The translations under genes and the position numbers were made by a program. This document shows positions 1,767-13,087 of a DNA stretch of 28,461 nucleotides, piece after piece. The notes beneath the pieces were generated by a model, which saw only the letters and a program-made list of their open reading frames with translations, had not been told where the DNA came from and made no database searches. The stretch is from Dicyema japonicum (lineage: Eukaryota > Dicyemida > Rhombozoa > Dicyemidae). Within the stretch, counting starts at the first letter, position 1; every line of letters starts with the position of its first letter. The DNA is taken from the NCBI GenBank assembly GCA_011109175.1, contig RDEW01000090.1:78163-106623 (forward strand), read 5' to 3'.

Positions 1767-3456
1767 TCGACGTAACGATAAACCTATTTCTATCGACATC
1801 TCATTGTCATCACCGTCCTTGGCAATTTTATTGACTGCTCAGTGAAGTGTGACTCCAGAAGTGACCACAATCCAATATTTTTGGAGGTCAAAACAAGGTC
1901 ACGGATAAAGTGACAATGCCCAACGATAACTAACTACAGCCTTGCGAATTGGAGATGATTCCGTCGATAATTGTATTGGACTATTAAATTTCCCCACTCC
2001 TCCATCAGTCGAACAATTAGTGAAATGGTTTAACTCCACCATAAACGCTGCCTATGGGGAAACAATCTACGTCATCAAAACGTTTCAACACAACGACGAA
2101 ACATCTGATCAGAGGACGAAATAATCTAAAGATGGTAAAATCGCCAACAGAAGAAAACATCAGAAAAAAACGAGAATTGAACAGAGAGATCGACAACAAC
2201 AGAAAGGCAGAGATTGCAAATAGATGAACGAGGCTATCGAAGGCTTTCTGCAAGAACCACCCAATGTAGAGAGTGTGGAAGTGGATCAAGAACATCAAAA
2301 GATTCTCTCCAGAGAGAATTGTCAAAGTCTACATAAAACCAGACACTCTGATAAAATATTACACGTCTATCTCCTACAAGAAGTACACTAAGTATTCCTG
2401 AATAAGATTGAAACGAAACGCTCCGATGACTGGATCCTATTTACTAGTCAGGATGTTCGCAGAGCCATATTAAAGGCCAACAACTCAGAGGCCAAAGGAC
2501 CAGACAACATAACCACATGTGAACTGAGGCACCTAGGTCATCGAGCCCTGGAATTATTAGCCTATATCTTCAACCTATCCATTAACACAAATACAATCCC
2601 TGGAAGATGGAAGAAGTCTCTAATCAGACCTATCCGAAAACCCAACAAACCAATAAATGAACCATCTTTTTATCGCCTAATATATATTCTAAGTCCGGTC
2701 TCAAGGATCCTTGAAAGGCTTGTTTTGGAAAAAAATACAAAACTCAATCTCAATACCTCCGACCCAGCACGGATTCCGGGATAATCATTTGACAACAACA
2801 CACCTTACAACCCTCACACAATTCATTGCGGAAGGATTTAACTCCCCCAAACCCCACCAGAGGACAGTAATTATACCCGTGGACATCTCAAAAGCGTTCG
2901 ACTCAGTCCCTAGAAAACTCCTAACAAAGAAAATATTTGAAACCAACATCCATCCGAACCTGAAACTTTGGCTTGGAAACTTCCTAAATGGAAGACGAGC
3001 ACAAGTACTCTGCAACAACATCAAATCAAGATCTCGCTATTTCCCAAATGGAGTCCCTCAAGGATACTCAGTCCGCTCAACAAATGCTTGACAAGCTAAC
3101 TATGACTCTCGAAGCGGTCTTTTGTCACACTGTTTACCACCTACAAAAACAGGTAACCAAAAAGAACGAAGCTATTCCTATTAACAAAACACAGAATATT
3201 CTGGGAGTAACCTTTGATCAGGGACTCACCTTTATCCGACATGTTGAAAACAAAGTAACTTCTGCTCTGAAAAAAATGTGAATTTTAAAAGTGCTCTCAA
3301 AAATACTTAGAGACCGAACTAGTGGCCTTACCACGATTTATGAACAATTTATCCGACTAACGATGACGTATGCAATCCTTCATGGGAAATGCAGATTTCA
3401 CTATCCTCCTCATTGAAACTATCTGCAATCTAGGGGACTGAATAAAGTTAATTGAC

Positions 3457-3724
3457 CAGAACACAAAATCCAGCCTATTGAAAATTTCTTAATCGAATTA
3501 CAACGGAAACTCTTAAAGGAGGCTATTTTACCGAGCTGCCCTCTATTCCATACACCATTGAAATATCTACAATCATCATAAATTTTGAGATCAGAACACA
3601 AAATCCAGCCTATTGAAAATTTCTTAATCGAATTACAACAGAAACTCTTAAAGGAGGCTATTTTACCGAGCTGCCCTATATTCCATACACTATCGAATTA
3701 TCTACGATCATCATAAGTTTTGAG
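3457..3724. repeat. Tandem duplication, 135-bp unit
   Basis: Copies 3457-3591 and 3592-3724 differ at roughly seven positions. The unit encodes the C-terminal stretch IQPIENFLIELQ... of the Jockey-type copy, followed by a stop in each unit. The divergence argues against a simple uncollapsed contig overlap, though two merged alleles or paralogues could also give it. Confidence 0.92.
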
Positions 3725-3848
3725 CCGATGCCATGTCCAATGAGAAGATTCTCGACCCAACTGGACTCGTCCTCTCGTTTGTCGGTCTAGGATCACTTAG
3801 TTAGATGAAAACTTTTATTTCTTTTCTTTGACCCAGTGATCCTGGGGG

Positions 3849-3870
3849 TAATAATAATAATACTAATAAT
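3849..3870 (+). repeat. TAA-rich 3' tail of the Jockey-type copy
   Basis: A run of TAA triplets with one TAC interruption follows the last coding remnant of the element. Short microsatellite tails instead of poly(A) are known at 3' ends of several non-LTR clades, so this probably marks the 3' terminus. Confidence 0.6.
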
Positions 3871-3873
3871 TCA

Positions 3874-4197
3874 TAGGTATTAAAGACTGTATAATCAAGT
3901 CAAAGAGATACTCATGANGAGAGCCAAAATGTCTATAGCTACGCATAGGCAGGACACACACTTTATTTAAGTAAAGAACAATTGATTGCAAAGAGAACTG
4001 GCGAAAGCGAGTCCTCTTGAGGAGTACCAATCTAGGCTCCGTTGATTTTTTTGTTCCCTCGAAACTTTTGGAAAAACGTCAGCGGCTGGTTGGGATTATT
4101 TGGATGGACCTATATTTTAATAAAATATAAGAACCCTTCGTAAATGCTGACTTAATCTAGAAAGCTTCATAGCCTCGTTAAAAAATGACTTTGAGCA
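3874..4197. other. Spacer, no gene seen
   Basis: Sequence between the Jockey-type 3' tail and the target duplication of the Ginger-like element. It holds a single N at 3918, probably an assembly join. No coding pattern or repeat recognised. Confidence 0.5.
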
Positions 4198-4202
4198 TAA
4201 TA
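4198..4202. repeat. Target site duplication TAATA, left
   Basis: Five bases directly outside the left inverted repeat, identical to 5597-5601. The flanks share AT-rich context, so chance agreement of five bases is possible, but the repeats fix its position exactly. Confidence 0.75.
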
Positions 4203-4252
4203 TGTCGCGAGAGCTACCTGCAACTACGCGCTACTTGCAATATCGATTTTTT
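4203..4252 (+). repeat. Left terminal inverted repeat of Ginger-like element
   Basis: Fifty bases that match the reverse complement of 5547-5596 with four substitutions, ending in a T-run. It contains the 11-base word GCTACYTGCAA twice, about one and a half helical turns apart, a likely transposase binding site. Confidence 0.92.
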
Positions 4253-4507
4253 TCCTCGAAATTAAACGAATAGTCTTATGACACTCACAAGTCGAACTCA
4301 GTAAAAGAAACCAGTTTTCTCAAAAAAACATGAAACTAAAATAATATAAAGATTTATGTTATGCTTTAAAAATTATAAAATTGAATTTATTTTTTAAATC
4401 CAATATTTTAAACAATTTAAAATCCCAGGTTAGACGATTGTATTCATTTAAGTTTCAATTAAGACAAAAAATTCAAAAAAAATATTTTATTTATAAGAAA
4501 GGATAAG

Positions 4508-5053
4508 TCACTTCTTTTTAAGCTTTTTAACGCGACTCATGTGGACGATCTCGGTATGTCCCTCATTCGATTGAAGTGTCATTCGCTTGTTAGACAATAT
4601 ATCTACGACTTTCACTTTTTCACTGTAGGGAAATTCAAATTTCCTTAACTTAGCGAGGGATTGTTGCTAATATATGATTTTCTTCATCATATTCCTTAAG
4701 ACTTTTGGCAAAAAGACATGTCTCACAATTGGAAACAACATCGCGAATAACATCTCTTTTCACAAAAAATATCGTTCTTTACAATATGTTTCTAGGTTGT
4801 TTTGGCCACAATGTGTTAAATCATGAATTTGAGTAGCGACAAACTTCATTTCCTCAACGTTGTCCGAATCAATAACCAATTTATCGCCTTCTGGGTCTTT
4901 TAGATACATTCTTCCTTCTTTAAGAACGAAGCTCTTGGACTTTTTTCGGATCCTGCACATAGCACATGCAGGCACATCAGTAGGTAAGCCTCCTTCCAGA
5001 ATAATTTTGAGATTATCATATTCAACAGATGTCTTAACAAACAAGCGTGACAT
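4508..5053 (-). pseudogene. Integrase-like transposase with the DDE core deleted
   Basis: From ATG at 5053 (minus) the frame runs 97 codons. It has a lead-in with FVLKEGRMYLKD and then an H2C2 integrase zinc-binding domain: HDLTHCG, followed after a frameshift near 4757 by NCETC (near 4705-4720), giving the H-x3-H...C-x2-C ligands. Downstream, at about 4650-4508, another frame gives KVKVVDILSNKRMTLQS, EIVHMSRVKKLKKK and a stop. This resembles the SH3-like C-terminal domain of Gypsy-type integrases. The rve catalytic core of about 150 residues that should lie between the two is absent, with only some 50 bp left. The element therefore cannot encode an active transposase. The missing LTRs and the presence of inverted repeats favour a DNA transposon over a Gypsy retroelement. 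Confidence 0.78.
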
Positions 5054-5423
5054 AACAATTCAAATTATTATTATTATTATAAGCAACTACATAGAATCAT
5101 ATAAACTATAATTCTATTCGTGCCGCGTCTGAACAATCCTCTTAATTAGCCTTTCCCATCCCCTCCTGTCCTATGCCAAGTGCCGCAGACTACTAAGGTC
5201 TTCACCGTCCTTTAGTAGTCTGGTTACTGATCTCAGGTCACCATTAAGGACTTCCGGAAGAGTTATTCTTGGACGACCTCTGAACTTCTCCCCTGACGTA
5301 TCGAAGTATTCTTCCATGACGACGTTTGCTGGCGTGTCTTGTTCCAATCTGAGAATATGGCCAAACAATCTCCAGCGAGCCTTCATGATCATGGTGCTCA
5401 GAGGTCCGGAACCGCATCTTCTA
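5054..5423 (-). mobile_element. 5'-truncated RTE copy nested in the Ginger-like element
   Basis: On the minus strand the segment reads RRCGSGPLSTMI, KARWRLFGHILRL, then RPRITLPEVLNGDL, LLKDGEDLSSLRHLA, a stop, and DRRGWERLIKRIV. This is the C-terminal region found after the RT in RTE elements, with the same order as in 9640-9830 and 13260-13460. It finishes in a run of TAA units (plus-strand ATT run at 5065-5080), the 3' tail, which abuts the transposase start codon at 5053. 5' truncation is typical of target-primed reverse transcription. It inserted after the DNA transposon, so it is younger. No clear target duplication found. Confidence 0.82.
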
Positions 5424-5546
5424 TATAATTAGTATTAATAGTTTATAATAATTTTATACAATAAAATTAATATTTTATATTACTAAAAATTAGAATTTTA
5501 ATCCAAAAGAACAATTTTTATAGATTCAAAAAAATTCAAAAAATTC

Positions 5547-5596
5547 AAAAAATCGATATTGCAGGTAGCGCATAGTTGCAAGTAGCGCTCGCGACA
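5547..5596 (-). repeat. Right terminal inverted repeat of Ginger-like element
   Basis: Reverse-complement partner of 4203-4252 with four mismatches. The inner side runs into a short AAATTC-type simple repeat (5523-5550), and the outer end is CTCGCGACA. Confidence 0.92.
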
Positions 5597-5601
5597 TAAT
5601 A
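5597..5601. repeat. Target site duplication TAATA, right
   Basis: Partner of 4198-4202, immediately outside the right inverted repeat. Confidence 0.75.
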
Positions 5602-6021
5602 AACAGAAAGGTTATTTCCATCATTAGTAGATGCGATGAAAACATATTTTAAATATTAAATATTACATAAAAAATTTTTTTTATTTAGTGTCTTTTGCTC
5701 CATTGTTATACAATACCTATACACCGCAAATGACGCTAGTGTCAATTTGAAAATACAGGTTCACAATACTAAAATTCTATTTCTGTAAACATTTTTACCG
5801 CAAAATCAACGAATTAGAAAAAGTTAAAAGTTAACTACTAACTAAGTTATCCCGGTTTTCCGGGTTCTGGCTCTCGTTCGGGTCCTCGAAGATCCTACAG
5901 AATTGATAAAAACGGGGACGGTCTCATTCTCCATAGATTCCCCGCATTTTCAAGATAGTCAAATATAGAGTGAAAGCGGACAGCCGTTTTTCATAGCCCA
6001 CTGTAGAAATAACTTCATTCT
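5602..6021. other. Spacer, no gene seen
   Basis: AT-rich sequence with a slightly GC-richer patch at 5850-5950. No frame or repeat stands out on either strand. Confidence 0.5.
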
Positions 6022-6374
6022 TTACCTTAGATGTTCTTTAAGATTCATTACGTTATTCACATTTTTCTTATTAATTATTTTTAAGGCAGTTGGTTGTGCG
6101 GCTTCTAATTTTTGAGACTTTTGAGACGACGATTCAGGTATCAGCTTCAGAAAGGACATGCGTAATCGATTGCTGGCAGTATGTATTGTCTGTAAATTTT
6201 CTGTAGTAAGAAGGTGTTGTGCCCAATTGGTGATCGGGACATAATTTTCAATATGCTGGTTATAATGTCATTGAAGTGTTCGCCGAATGTCAAGAGAGTA
6301 TCCAACTTTAATCCTAGTGAAATATATGGAGTCGAATAAAGGAGGCGGAAGCGATTGGTTAACAAAATCATCAA
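6022..6374 (-). pseudogene. Jockey/CR1-type RT C-terminal fragment
   Basis: The minus-strand frame from 6374 gives a thumb-like GLKLDTLLTFGEHF, then IMSRSPIGHNTFLLQKIYRQ and YILPAIDYACPF. This is the same order as ILGVTFDQGLTF ... LTTIYEQFIR in the Jockey-type copy at 3195-3345. After a one-base shift near 6147 the frame continues with SQKLEAAQPTALKII to a stop at 6022. This is the region after the RT palm in Jockey/CR1-like elements. No catalytic motif is included, and both ends run into unrelated sequence, so it is an isolated fragment. Confidence 0.65.
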
Positions 6375-6589
6375 AGTGCTAATAGTAAGTGAAAATAAGA
6401 CATTTTATTAAAAAGTAAGTTAAAATTAAAGTTGTTATGAGGTCTCCATTATGACCTGGAAATATTGAACACGCGATGGGAGATACCTTTTATAATCTCG
6501 AGCACAATGTTCTGGAAAAGCCATCGCGTCATTCTAGGTTCACCCTTCCTCTTCTTTACAGCTGCCCGATTAACCTGATAAACTCATTA

Positions 6590-6745
6590 ACCTGATCCGA
6601 TTTCGCAGTGAGATGTTCACTGATGACGGCGTCATTCGTCAAGCCAAAGCATTTTATATGCGTGGAACTTTTATCCGGAATGTACAGCTGCGAGATTCGA
6701 ACTATGATTCCTCAGGCCATTTACAGCTCTCATAACAACGCCAAA
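6590..6745 (-). mobile_element. tRNA-derived SINE, copy 1
   Basis: Reverse-complemented, this matches 21747-21902. Shared blocks are a B-box-like AGTTCGAATCTCGC, TGTACATTC, and the 3' block TGACGCCGTCATCAGTG followed by AACATCTCACTGCG. The regions between the blocks are diverged. A B box near the 5' part and a conserved unrelated body are the layout of a tRNA-derived SINE. Beyond the body the copy shows ATCAGGTTAAT twice, a possible tail repeat. No protein is encoded. Confidence 0.75.
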
Positions 6746-6847
6746 TCGGAATGTAATATTATAGTTTATTGAAGATAATGTTAATTTATTGTATTTTATG
6801 ATTTTTTAATAAAATGTAATATAAAGTAATTTATTTATTTTAAGAAT

Positions 6848-6858
6848 ATGAAGGTTAT
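6848..6858. repeat. 11-bp target site duplication, left
   Basis: ATGAAGGTTAT here recurs exactly at 9870-9880, just after the short ATAATAAC tail of the RTE element. This sets the element at 6859-9869 and implies that the ATG at 6848 belongs to the flank, not to the element. Confidence 0.75.
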
Positions 6859-6892
6859 TTTGGTTGAGGTGGTGACGTCCCTCTCGAAAAGT

Positions 6893-7724
6893 ATGTCTGA
6901 AAAACACGAAAATTGCAACCTAAATGACTTCTCTCTTTTAACGTTCAACGTCAGAGGACTCTCTAGTGCATGGAAAAGAAAAGAACTTTGTGAAGACCTT
7001 TCAAAATACAAGATATCATTCGGATGTTTCCAAGAGACAAAATTATCGAAGGAGTTTGAAGAACACGGAATGTTTCAGTTAATCTTTCTCTCTGAGGATC
7101 AAAACATTACGGACTTGGATTTCCTGTAAGAAAGGACCTACTCCGGCGCATATACCGTTACTGGACTATCAATGAAATGATTGGGATTTTACAAATAACA
7201 TTGTACGATCATAACTCTCCGAAGAGTTATCTTACAATTATTAACGCATATGCTCCACATAGTGGATGGATCAATAAGAAACCCGAGGAAATTGACGACT
7301 TTTATGCGAATCTGTCTGATGTTTATTCCAATTATGCAAATTCCACATTAATATTGATTGCCGGTGATCTTAATGCAAAAGTTGGAAATCGAATCACTAT
7401 AGAAGAAGCATTCATTGGAAGACATGGAAGGGGAAAAAGGAACATTGCAGAAACCTTGTTAGCTAGCTTTTGTCAAGCAAATTATCTATTTTTTGTAACA
7501 CGGACTTTATCCACTCTGCAAGACACAGGACAGCTTGGTCAGGCAATAGAACTAAGTCTGACGGAAGCATTGCGAAAATCTACAATCAAATAGACTACAT
7601 TATTTGCAGACAAAAAGACCGCAGTATTGTCACTGATGCCCGTGCTTATGAAGGGTCTATAATTGACAGCGATCACAAGATGGTTATTGGCAATATGTCG
7701 ATAAAGAAACTTATGGATTTGTAA
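6893..7724 (+). pseudogene. RTE AP-type endonuclease domain, frameshifted
   Basis: I start at ATG 6893 (MSEKHENCN) because the upstream ATG at 6848 lies in the target duplication. The frame shows LLTFNVRGLSSAWK and CFQETKL, the first two metal-binding regions of exonuclease III-like endonucleases. A shift near 7110 leads to IINAYAPHSGW, LIAGDLNAKVGN and GRHGRGKRN. A second shift near 7480 leads to YNQIDYIICRQKD and SDHKMVIGN, ending at a stop at 7722. All main catalytic blocks (N, E, D-N, S-D-H) are still readable across three frames. In life the domain nicks target DNA to prime reverse transcription. As it stands no full-length protein can be made. Confidence 0.85.
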
Positions 7725-7840
7725 GGGATGAAAAGAAAGTGCAATGGACACACGGACTGAGGGGGAAGGGATAAGTTTTAGACCATTTAAAGAACAATAC
7801 TATCCGGGGAGAGGAATTCTGAAAATACCTCGATGAGGGA

Positions 7841-9119
7841 TTGGAAGAAATATCAGCAGATTTGGCACCGCAAATTGCGTGGACCTTGGTCAAACAGAAG
7901 ATCATGATTGCTGCGGATATATACCTGAAAGAGGACTACGTAACTAATACACCTACTGAAGAAGGGACCGCTTTGAAACGCCTTGCTAATCAACAAAAGG
8001 CGATATGGATACATTGTCTAAAAACAGATGACAAAAATACGAAACAGCGGATACAAAAGAAAAGAACAGTCATCAAAAACAATAAGAAAAGCTGCACGTC
8101 AAATTTAAAGAACGAAACAACAACAAAAATAGAGAAAATCGAAGGCCTTTAAAGACAATGCGAAGTTTTTATGAAGCTGTCGGACAAATCAGAAAACTTC
8201 CAAGGAAAACATTGACTTTACGATATGAAAAAGGAAAACATATTGCTAACCAACAAAAAATGCAGAACTTATAGCGGATTATTTTGAAGCACAATTTGTA
8301 TCAGAAAATAGGAAAAAACTCACCATTAACAGGGATCAGGGAAATTTGGACGAAGAATTAACTTTGGAAGAAGTATTGAGAGCAAGTTTCAAACTGAAGG
8401 ACAATAAGAGTCCTTGCCAAGATGGCTTAAATGGTGAATTTTTCAAATATGGAACTCAAAAACTATACATGGTAATTGCCTGGATTCTAAACGAAACGTA
8501 TACTGTAGGAGCCACTTTGTCACTTGGAGAAGGACTATTATACCAGTACAGAAGCCAAACAAAAAATCGGGTAATGTTGAGAACCTAAAATCAGTGGTCT
8601 TAACCAACAAACTACGAAAGATACTAGCCAAACAAATGGAGAAGTGCGACTGTTCAAAAATTTAAAATAACGACAACCATTCTGGGGATTGATATGTCAA
8701 AGGCTTTTGATTACATCAACAGGATCAAGCTGCTGCAAATACTGGAGCACTTTTTGGAAAGCTCAACGATTAGGATGGTCAGGACACTCGTGACGGACAC
8801 GAGTTTGATGGTCAGGACTGCTAAAGCTTTATCGAGGACATTTGGTTCCTCTCAAGGAAATCCATTATCCCCGATTTTGTTTATTTGGAAAGCTCAACGA
8901 TTAGGATGGTCAGGACACTCGTGACGGACACGAGTTTGATGGTCAGGACTGCTAAAGCTTTATCGAGGACATTTGGTTCCTCTCAAGGAAATCCATTATC
9001 CCCGATTTTGTTTATTATTTATCTGGAGGCAGCTCTACGAGACTTGAAGCCTCATATCAGAGAAGGAAAGAGCATAATAGCATATGCAGACGACGTGGAC
9101 TTTATTTTGAATAACATAT
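7841..9119 (+). pseudogene. RTE linker and reverse transcriptase, broken
   Basis: The linker frame (7841-8152) has LEEISADLAPQIAW and KRLANQQKAIWIHCLKTD, matching SLAKQQREIWIQSLNT of the copy at 11561-13087. The RT begins at 8346 (EVLRASFKLKDNKSPCQDG) and shifts near 8540 to KPNKKSGNVENLKSVVLTN. About 50 residues before motif A are missing. Motif A GIDMSKAFD starts at 8685, motif B SSQGNPLSP appears twice because of a 131-bp duplication, and motif C IAYADDVDFI lies at 9077-9106. All three catalytic aspartates are therefore preserved, unlike most neighbours. A stop follows at 9119. The product would copy element RNA in the nucleus at the nicked target. Confidence 0.85.
8753..9014. repeat. Exact tandem duplication, 131-bp unit
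   Basis: 8753-8883 and 8884-9014 are identical. The unit spans the RT segment up to motif B, so the product would carry the region twice and is also shifted, because 131 is not a multiple of three. Being perfect, it is either very recent or an uncollapsed assembly overlap. Confidence 0.95.
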
Positions 9120-9143
9120 AAGAGTTAATTGCACTTTTTGTAG

Positions 9144-9381
9144 AAAATGCCTGATAAAATGGCTGAGTGGTCATTAAAAGTAAACACAAACAAAACCGAA
9201 ATCACGGAGCTAAAAAGAAGTGAGGAAAGGACCGAGGATCACTGGCGTAGATCAAAAAACTAAAAATGCCTGATAAAATGGCTGAGTGGTCATTAAAAGT
9301 AAACACAAACAAAACCGAAATCACGGAGCTAAAGAGAAGTGAGGAAAGGACCGAGGAACACTAGCGTAGATCAAAAAACTA
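9144..9381. repeat. Tandem duplication, 119-bp unit
   Basis: 9144-9262 and 9263-9381 differ at three positions. The unit encodes the KMAEWSLKVNTNKTEITEL region just after RT motif C. Only the second copy leads on into the rest of the element. Confidence 0.94.
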
Positions 9382-10176: not shown

Positions 10177-10922
10177 ATGTTGACAAGCAATGCTTATTTT
10201 AAATTATTTATGTTCGATATATTCGATTGTTTCTTCACTAACGATCATTTTCAACTCAGTCAAAGCTATATGAAAACAATCTATTATTTATCTAATCCTG
10301 AAGCCTGGGAAACCAAAGGAAGACTCCGGCTCCTAGGGACCGATGTCGCTTCTGTATTGTGCAGACAAGAATTTCAGAAAGACTTGTTATGACACTCATC
10401 CGCCCTTTCCTCCCTGACGCATGGTTTCAGCATGGCTTCAAAGAGTGAACGTCGACTGTCTTTGACACCTAAATGCATTAAAGGAATTCATAAAAGATTG
10501 CCTAAACGACGACGATTATTTGCTTAGTTGAAAGAGTGAACGTCGACTGTCTTTGACACCTAAATGCATTAAAGGAATTCATAAAAGATTGCCTATACGA
10601 CGACGATTATTTGCTTAGTTGACAAATTTGACTCTGTCGTAAGATCACCACAAAAAAATTATTCGTCGATCAATGACGCAAATCTAAGTTATGGTTGGGG
10701 AATTTCTTGAGATGTCTCCGAGGGCGAGTACGCCAGGGTAATCGATGTTCATCATCCAGACTATTATTACCAAACGAGGTTCCTTCGGGTTCCCCATTAT
10801 CTCCAGTCATATGCAATCTAATTACGAATGACTTAACAATTCAACAAGATGACGACACATTAAGGTCCTACGCGGATGATATTGTTGTTTCACAACCATC
10901 AATAAAGCTAATGAATTCTTGA
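10177..10922 (+). pseudogene. Jockey/CR1-type RT fragment with motif C
   Basis: Read across frames it gives SYMKTIYYLS, LKPGKPKEDSGS and GPMSLLYCADKNFRKT. Next come RPFLPD and QHGFK, a stop-riddled stretch that still resembles the region before motif A, LVDKFDSVV near 10620, motif B NEVPSGSPLSP near 10768-10800 and motif C RSYADDIVVS at 10866-10895. The frame ends at 10922 with no thumb or C-terminus. The QHGFK context matches FQHGFKSD in the copy at 25487-26280, but this looks like a different subfamily. A 91-bp tandem duplication (10440-10621) sits before motif A. Confidence 0.75.
10440..10621. repeat. Tandem duplication, 91-bp unit
   Basis: 10440-10530 and 10531-10621 differ at a single position (gcctaaacg against gcctatacg). 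The unit duplicates the part of the RT fragment between QHGFK and motif A. Confidence 0.95.
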
Positions 10923-11115
10923 AGTATTTTTTTTACGAAAGCTCCTTTTTCTCAATTTCGAGTGCAGGGAATCCACCATAAAATGTTAAAATTCAGACTA
11001 AAGGCGATTCTTTGTGAAAGTCCTTTATTTCAAAACAATCTTTTCAGAGATATAGAATACATACATCAATAGCGATTTTCTCCTTATTAGAGAGCTTGAG
11101 ACAGAAATTCGGTGT

Positions 11116-11560
11116 NNNNNNNNNNNNNNNNNNNNNNNNNNNNNNNNNNNNNNNNNNNNNNNNNNNNNNNNNNNNNNNNNNNNNNNNNNNNNNNNNNNNN
11201 NNNNNNNNNNNNNNNNNNNNNNNNNNNNNNNNNNNNNNNNNNNNNNNNNNNNNNNNNNNNNNNNNNNNNNNNNNNNNNNNNNNNNNNNNNNNNNNNNNNN
11301 NNNNNNNNNNNNNNNNNNNNNNNNNNNNNNNNNNNNNNNNNNNNNNNNNNNNNNNNNNNNNNNNNNNNNNNNNNNNNNNNNNNNNNNNNNNNNNNNNNNN
11401 NNNNNNNNNNNNNNNNNNNNNNNNNNNNNNNNNNNNNNNNNNNNNNNNNNNNNNNNNNNNNNNNNNNNNNNNNNNNNNNNNNNNNNNNNNNNNNNNNNNN
11501 NNNNNNNNNNNNNNNNNNNNNNNNNNNNNNNNNNNNNNNNNNNNNNNNNNNNNNNNNNNN
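11116..11560. other. Assembly gap of 445 N
   Basis: Unbroken run of N inside the RTE copy on the minus strand. The remainder of that copy's RT probably lies in the gap. The 90 bases on the low side (11025-11115) show no recognisable RTE sequence. Confidence 0.99.
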
Positions 11561-13087
11561 ATCTTTGAGCCGTTGCACACCGCCACCTGTGGCTCCACAG
11601 AATGTCCGCTGTCGACCTTCCTTCACGAAATCCACTATGGCATGCTGATAGGTAATTTCCTGCAGGATGTTTTAAGCGGTCCAAAGCAACAGATGCAAGA
11701 ACTTTTCGTAATGTGTTTAACAATATGACTGGGCGTTTGCTTTCTAGTGGTCCCTTTGGTTTGTTAGGCTTTTGTATAGGTATCAATGTCCCTTTCCCCA
11801 GTGGTATGACAGAGTTGGATGTAAACATTCCATTTAACAATGTCGCAATGGTTTCGAATAGACGCATAGGTCCATATTTCAGCAGTTCGGGAGGGATGTT
11901 GTCTGGTCCAGCGCTCCTGTGATTCTTTAGCTTACTGCACGCACTCTGAACTTCTTTAGATGTGATAATTGTTTCCAGCATCCGCGGTTCTCCGATGAAA
12001 GGGGCCAGTTCTTGGCCGTTCGCATTGAACAGTTTTTCAAAATGGGCAGCAATCAATTCGATCTGTTCATCTGGTTTTAAGATAAGTTTCCCCTTCCCAT
12101 CCATAACATGTACTGTCGCTTTTTTCTTTCCTCGCATTAGTCGGACTGCAACGAACATTTGTGCATTGTCCTTTAGTTGCTCCAGCTCTCTAAGATGTGA
12201 TAGGAAGACATCCTTCGAGTGTTCATTATTAAGCTTCATGATTCTTCTCTTGATAATATTTCGTTCAGTTCGTAGTTTGTTTTTGATATTTATATCTGTC
12301 GTGTTTAGACTCTGTATCCATATTTCTCGTTGTTGTTTTGCCAGTGATAAGGAGTCTGGATGGCCAAGTGACATATTTCCGGTTGTCTGCCGTCTCACTC
12401 CAAGGTGGGTGTTTGCGGCAAGGCAAATAATGCTTTTGGTCTGATCCCATAGGTCTTGTATAGTCATATTAGCTGGTAATGTATATAGGTGGTTCTCTAT
12501 ATGTTTTTGGAAGTTTGTCACCAGCAGCGGCTGAGACCAGAGCTTCTCAGTCATATATACATGGGTATGGTAAGGTGGTATCGTTTTGCTTAGACTCAGG
12601 TTCTTCCTACCAATGTAGTATTTCTTCAAGGAGAACTTGCCAATAACCATTTTATGGTCACTATTTATCATCGACCTTCCATAAGAACGGGCATCATTCA
12701 GTAGGTGTTTGTTCTTGGTCCGACAAATGATGTAATCAATTTGATTATAAATATTGACACTTTTGTTTTCCGAGTTCGTTCTATGGCCAGTCCATGTGCT
12801 CCTGTGGCGAGCTGGGTGCATAAAGGCAGTTTTTCCTATGAAAAGATCATTCGCTTGACAGAAAGTGTTCCCGGGGTGTTTCTCCACCCCCGTCCATGCC
12901 TGCCGATGAACGATTCCTCTCCACTGCGTCGCATCCCAACTTTAGCGTTAAAGTCCCCGGCAATAAATATCAACGACGAAGATTCGTATTCCATATATTG
13001 ATTGACCTTGAAAATTGTATTGAGAAACTGGAGTTTTTGTTGAATGACGATTAGTTTCTTAGTGTTTTTTGTTAGATTTGCATTCAT
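11561..13087 (-). pseudogene. Best preserved RTE copy: endonuclease to start of RT
   Basis: From 13087 (minus) the frame includes LIFIAGDFNAKVG and GRHGRGW. After one frameshift near 12880 it stays open for about 440 codons down to the gap: CQANDLFIGKTAF, YNQIDYIICRTKN, SDHKMVIGKFSLKK, the linker QMFVAVRLMRGKKKA, and RT regions KNHRSAGPDNIPPELLKYG, LIPIQKPNKPKG, LLNTLRKVLASV and HSGFREGRSTADILW. The first endonuclease blocks are degraded or lost before 13087. The open frame is the longest in the window, so this copy decayed least. RT motifs A to C would lie in the gap. The frame found across the gap is meaningless because it reads N. Confidence 0.88.

Follow-up and report, generated by a model that had tools for sequence, protein, structure and literature searches.

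A dead Ginger-like transposon of Dicyema japonicum and the 5-bp target word of its family

The transposon copy, its boundaries and its target

A stretch of 28,461 nucleotides from the Dicyema japonicum genome (contig RDEW01000090.1, positions 78,163 to 106,623; hereafter the window, G+C 36.3%) contains a DNA transposon copy with ends TGTCGCGAG...CTCGCGACA and a degraded transposase gene on the minus strand. We assign a probability of about 0.92 to the reading that this copy is dead and belongs to a Ginger-like cut-and-paste family, allied by its traits to Ginger2/Tdd; Ginger elements are DNA transposons related to the integrases of retroviruses and gypsy elements. The element is bounded by a TAATA direct repeat, a target-site duplication (TSD) of 5 bp (Table 1). 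Its 50-nucleotide ends, compared in inverted orientation, are identical at 46 of 50 positions, against a maximum of 30 of 50 among 285,440 inverted pairs of N-free 50-nucleotide segments drawn at random from the window. These terminal inverted repeats (TIRs) are of the TGTNR type (TGTCG). The initial annotation had described just such an element, with 50-bp inverted repeats inside a 5-bp TAATA repeat, and the ends, the TSDs as read and the empty sites described below all bear it out. Its range of 4198-5601 gives the correct outer limits but includes the TSDs, the element proper being 4203-5596.

Two pieces of the transposase gene remain, resembling the two ends of a 458-amino-acid Dictyocoela protein, P0002. 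Compared with a sibling copy, L046 on contig C13, the window copy is short of approximately 867-870 bp at the deletion junction. The missing stretch held the remainder of the zinc site, the whole DDE core and some of the C-terminus; a second loss relative to L046 removes 85 bp near 4400. The integrase-type gene first proposed for the window is therefore present as N- and C-terminal pieces, with only the first half (HH) of its zinc site and no DDE core. A nested segment of approximately 350-365 bp is read, from its frame and layout, as the probable 3' end of a long interspersed nuclear element (LINE), and the matches listed include at least 30 further copies at 96-100% identity. Being nested, this LINE would be younger than the element itself. 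Pfam hmmscan gave nothing significant for either transposase fragment or for the nested piece. With its core deleted and an insertion inside, the copy is dead, as had been proposed, and is in itself an ordinary dead transposon.

Table 1. Features of the transposon copy and tandem duplications in the window (window coordinates)
Feature	Position	Strand	Basis
Left TSD, TAATA	4198-4202	.	Sequence; one copy at unoccupied relatives of the site
Left TIR, 50 bp, starts TGTCGCGAG, TGTNR type	4203-4252	+	End-to-end comparison; random-pair control
Transposon copy, internally deleted and LINE-interrupted	4203-5596	- (transposase strand)	Termini; sibling comparison; empty sites
Transposase C-terminal domain remnant (SH3-like by fold matches of a relative)	4508-4666	-	Open frame; 47% to P0002 residues 416-458, E 3e-9
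Internal deletion junction	4659-4663	.	Comparison with sibling L046
Transposase N-terminal extension and HH half of HHCC zinc site	4760-5059	-	Open frame; 32% to P0002 residues 1-98, E 9e-13
Putative 5'-truncated LINE 3' end with AT-rich tail, nested	5064-5428	-	Repeat copies, reading frame; left edge within about 20 bp
Right TIR, 50 bp	5547-5596	-	End-to-end comparison; random-pair control
Right TSD, TAATA	5597-5601	.	Sequence; empty sites
Two-copy tandem duplications	385-852, 1038-1223, 3457-3724, 8753-9016, 9144-9381, 10440-10622

A near-copy with the same flanks (L055, C109:91000-98500) duplicates approximately 2098-6599 of the window, including the element. Its pieces are 93-98% identical to the window, and about 1 kb is found in L055 alone. 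It is an allele or a segmental duplication, and no independent insertion.

The termini proved usable for a family-wide search, as the initial annotation had anticipated. In the 64.7 Mb searched (191 contigs), the exact 15-base terminus TGTCGCGAGCGSTAC occurs 66 times, on 33 contigs, and 49 of these occurrences are preceded by TAATA or TATTA (TAWTA), words with a background frequency of 0.0058 (180,814 positions of this genome's sequence). The 66 are partly non-independent, for they include a tandem array of three copies on C23 and the C109 duplicate of the window copy. A sister family, whose terminus is TGTCACATGGGC, has TAWTA at 138 of 251 exact occurrences. Where two adjacent ends both adjoin the word, the words are directly repeated in all 11 pairs of the window family and in 25 of 26 sister-family pairs, the latter counted over the first 100 of the 138 places; TAWTA is thus a duplication rather than part of the repeat. 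Fifteen two-ended elements were compared: 14 of the window family, with the C23 array counted once, and the sister copy L061; L041, whose right flank is N, and the C109 duplicate were omitted. Identical 5-bp direct repeats flank 12 of the 15, and in 11 the repeat is TAWTA, so that other copies with TAATA-like duplications do exist.

Two copies have complex layouts. In L049, at 1901-9348, two family termini 7.4 kb apart have matching GAATA repeats, making this a large copy that is either composite or heavily nested. L045 has two left ends and one right end (612, 2001, 3970), the outer pair sharing TATTA and the inner left end following AATTA.

The boundaries were examined independently by joining 80 bp of flank from each side with one target copy and searching the genome for the junction. 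Eight insertions were searched first and seven of these again, with L054, L039 and L061 left out and the best 40 candidates scored per search. All 40 matches listed for L043 span the junction; in the second search 12 of those listed do so for the window insertion, 3 for L046 and 19 for L048, and none among those listed for L040, L042, L047 or L051. The unoccupied sites inspected (five for the window, three for L043, two each for L046 and L048) have one target copy and no element. The single target reads TAATA at three of the five window sites, AAATA at one and AAA-A at one; it is TATTA at all three L043 sites, CATTA at both L046 sites and TATTA at both L048 sites. Because the joined flanks of the window insertion match elsewhere in the genome without the element, it evidently entered a host-genome repeat. 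Since empty sites are found for the whole TIR unit, the predicted boundaries are proven; an unoccupied site lacking them had been named at the outset as contrary evidence, and the sites found confirm them instead.

The transposase and its relatives

Siblings of approximately 2 kb keep the DDE core, for which the initial annotation had suggested searching; none of them was shown to be intact. A 2-kb sibling contains transposase frames only, with no OTU or Ulp1 frame, and the reverse-transcriptase frames of the longer copies L039 and L040 resemble nested LINEs. For L046 and its relatives Pfam reports rve (E 1.3e-11) and, under its cut-off, zf-H2C2 (E 9e-4). The protein family has the order N-terminal extension, HHCC zinc site, DD35E core and C-terminal beta domain, with HHCC and DD35E conserved across 30 relatives. 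In a structure model of P0002 the N-terminal extension is modelled and the C-terminal residues 416-458 consist of beta strands. The fold that it matches best is the solved structure of the prototype foamy virus integrase, with approximately 19% identity and a whole-model TM-score of 0.34.

A profile of four cores, with lengths restricted to 0.55-1.75 times the query, retrieved 102 proteins. The best named relatives come from Dictyocoela and Nosema granulosis, followed by Pseudoloma and Cucumispora, and many (from Dictyocoela roeselum, D. muelleri, N. granulosis and Pseudoloma neurophilia) are annotated as Gag-Pol, Tf2 or transposable element. In P0002, P0003, P0008, P0022 and P0026 the Met start lies at the same point just before a conserved EY, as in the window family. 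Because these starts coincide, the proteins look whole, at 360-470 amino acids and without reverse transcriptase; most of them sit on contigs of 1-2 kb, too short to reveal an upstream gene. Reverse transcriptase or RNase H domains occur in two of the 102 relatives, both distant (P0088, P0103), and neither OTU nor Ulp1 is found among the precomputed domains of the 102. Among the near relatives, 26 extend far enough at the C-terminus to be examined for GP[YFW] and none has it, in a weak test whose gypsy control was positive in one of three; the window tail has FPY where GPY/F is expected, and GPF is seen in one sister lineage, L059. As for YPYY, the N-terminal extension is present and modelled, yet the Y-P pair, judged by eye, is unconserved. 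A scan of viral contigs with P0002 found no relative.

Other lineages are present in the same genome. Sister copy L061 (C62:283200-285700, at 138-2067) has termini TGTCACATGGGC and a TAATA duplication, and its core is 56% identical to that of L046. Its transposase has six candidate introns of 24-27 nucleotides and, by reading, one in-frame stop in that copy; the published D. japonicum genome (67.5 Mb, 36.7% G+C, 377 scaffolds) is described with a mean intron of 38 bp (PMC6736024). L064-L066 represent a fourth Ginger-like transposase lineage, and a search for element ends in L059 and L060 gave none convincing.

Core trees place these lineages among their relatives. A quick tree of 102 rows (10 of 112 removed as short) put one of 11 gypsy rows on the wrong side, and a careful tree was built from 51 rows of our choosing, including seven of those 11. 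In the careful tree the window family (as the L046 core) and L061 form a clade (100/97) with P0002 and P0017 of Dictyocoela and one metagenome protein, L059 and L060 fall in a neighbouring branch, L066 lies elsewhere, and the seven gypsy rows stand apart (100/100). KRBA2-like animal rows, which may be Ginger2, form one clade (100/99) among this lineage's relatives, not outside them. The two trees agree on the window clade and differ in the KRBA2-like branch point. The families of this genome need three label changes on the tree, two of them forced by the starred branches. These several placements fit repeated transfer, and might also be explained by animal host DNA in microsporidian assemblies or by sparse sampling.

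Elsewhere in the window, its first 10.6 kb contain six near-perfect two-copy tandem duplications (91-233 bp, 94-100% match), and L060 has three more. Of 13 arrays with a unit of at least 60 bp in 193,387 bases scanned, 10 are at about two copies. They may reflect an assembly artefact or a real duplication process. An open frame at 11025-12941 (minus strand) resembles, by eye, a LINE endonuclease/reverse transcriptase, and is split by a 445-base N gap at 11116-11560.

Transposition model and alternative explanations

Active members of the family would encode a single protein made up of an N-terminal extension, an HHCC domain, a DD35E RNase-H core and an SH3-like C-terminus. The 50-bp TIRs would be bound by this transposase, which would bring the two TGT...ACA ends together and attach them to the target at nicks offset by 5 bp inside TA-W-TA; repair of the staggered joints would leave TAATA or TATTA on both sides. 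Movement would be by cut-and-paste and not by copying. The window copy landed in a host repeat, had its DDE core removed by an internal deletion and acquired the putative LINE. The demonstrated parts of this model are the termini, the 5-bp duplication, the target word, the empty sites and the architecture, the last from sequence and the model of a relative.

Several observations weigh against this account. TAWTA does not adjoin 17 of the 66 termini of the window family or 113 of the 251 of the sister family, and one sister-family pair, on C112, is inverted. Three of the 15 two-ended elements (L044, L045, L056) have no matching 5-bp repeats, and L049 has GAATA rather than TAWTA. Two of the five window empty sites and both L046 sites differ from TAWTA; diverged repeats would explain this, and these sites leave the word itself unproven. 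Among the copies examined, none was shown to be intact, to be expressed or to have moved recently. Finally, placement among the Ginger groups is by traits, because named Ginger1 and Ginger2 references are absent from the tree.

It is most improbable that the locus is a gypsy long terminal repeat (LTR) retrotransposon remnant, with two LTR pieces oppositely oriented around an integrase fragment. The integrase similarity would suit such a remnant, as would the Gag-Pol or Tf2 annotation of many relatives and the TGT...ACA ends and 5-bp duplications, which occur in LTR elements too; but the inverted layout is common to many separate insertions, empty sites exist for the whole TIR unit, and the near relatives look whole. 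The separation from LTR elements drawn in the initial annotation is upheld by these sites, by the isolation of the gypsy rows and by the 2-kb sibling, whose transposase-only content is unlike the copies with long direct terminal repeats and gag-pol genes that were to count against it. Microsporidian contamination of the assembly is scarcely credible either. The closest proteins are annotated from microsporidia, but the exact termini are spread over 33 contigs, the insertions occupy repeats present throughout the genome, and contig C13 bears both an element copy and a PAX gene; PAX domains occur at four places in this genome and none exceeds the cut-off in 14 control genomes.

Within the Ginger superfamily, a Ginger1 element proper is unlikely. 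An extension N-terminal to the zinc site, the SH3-like C-terminus and the GPF of L059 favour it, and this lineage shares with Ginger1 an integrase-type transposase, TGTNR ends, GT-AG introns and TIRs, which in Ginger1 measure 40-270 bp (PMC2836005). Not found here are the 4-bp CCGG/CCGT TSD of Ginger1 (PMC2836005), in place of which stands 5-bp TAWTA, the OTU or Ulp1 domain that most Ginger1 elements have, and, save in L059, GPY/F, to the extent that the weak GP[YFW] test bears on it. That the family is an ordinary Ginger2/Tdd member, with TAWTA as one AT-rich target among several in use there, is a serious alternative to which we give slightly less than even odds. The TGTNR ends, the 50-bp TIR, the 5-bp AT-rich TSD and the GP[YF]-free window tail all agree with it. 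Against this, TAWTA is common to two families here, and the KRBA2-like clade is separate, yet placed among this lineage's relatives. The published description of Ginger2 gives RTATAY targets and, in animals, 4-bp TSDs, with 5 bp in TDD-4/5 and no GPY/F (PMC2836005); elsewhere the TSD length is stated as 4 bp in Ginger1 and as 4 or 5 bp in Ginger2 (PMC10045372).

Comparison with known systems

The Ginger-like reading draws on features of the superfamily: TIRs with TGTNR ends, and an H2C2 and DDE transposase in L046 and relatives rather than in the window copy. By its traits the family is nearer to Ginger2/Tdd than to Ginger1. TDD-4, TDD-5 and Ginger2-1_TS are described with TIRs, TGTNR ends, H2C2 and DDE, an AT-rich target and no GPY/F (PMC2836005), all as here. 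Unlike them, the window family and its sister prefer a 5-bp word of the form TA..TA, TAWTA, and the element is of approximately 2 kb with a transposase that has an N-terminal extension. Because endogenous nimaviruses with a Ginger2-like gene are reported to insert into AT repeats (PMC10871703), AT-rich targeting by such enzymes has precedent. A Polinton/Maverick (6-bp TSD, many genes including a DNA polymerase) is excluded by the 2-kb unit and 5-bp TSD.

The initial annotation considered Ginger elements rarely described in small parasitic animals, a view tempered by the report of Ginger2 in one such parasite, Trichinella (PMC2836005). Judged by titles and the start of abstracts, with Repbase outside the search, the papers listed included none on such an element in dicyemids and none on Ginger in microsporidia, and term counts gave nothing starting with "Ginger" in the texts of two microsporidian transposon papers (PMC4202319, PMC7313128).

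What makes the family interesting is the 5-bp word that it targets, its abundance, combined with empty sites that are clean, and the relatives it has in microsporidia. With its ends known exactly, its termini numbering in the hundreds, a strong preference for one word and numerous empty sites, the lineage is an unusually clean case in which to ask how an integrase-type enzyme altered its cut spacing and target. The microsporidian proteins (from Dictyocoela, N. granulosis and Pseudoloma) have the same domain order in those inspected, a likeness known at the protein level. The lineage also raises the possibility that microsporidian proteins now annotated as Gag-Pol are DNA transposases, and that microsporidia and animals have exchanged them. 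Because the families of this genome occupy several positions among proteins attributed to microsporidia, we raise, tentatively and as the less probable course, a third Ginger group that would target 5-bp TAWTA, have an N-terminal extension like that of foamy viruses and have moved between microsporidia and the animal parasite. The foamy virus integrase shares with this transposase family an N-terminal extension, an HHCC domain, a DDE core and an SH3-like tail. The prototype foamy virus enzyme differs in being viral and in acting on reverse-transcribed DNA, and its domains are arranged differently from those of the P0002 model.
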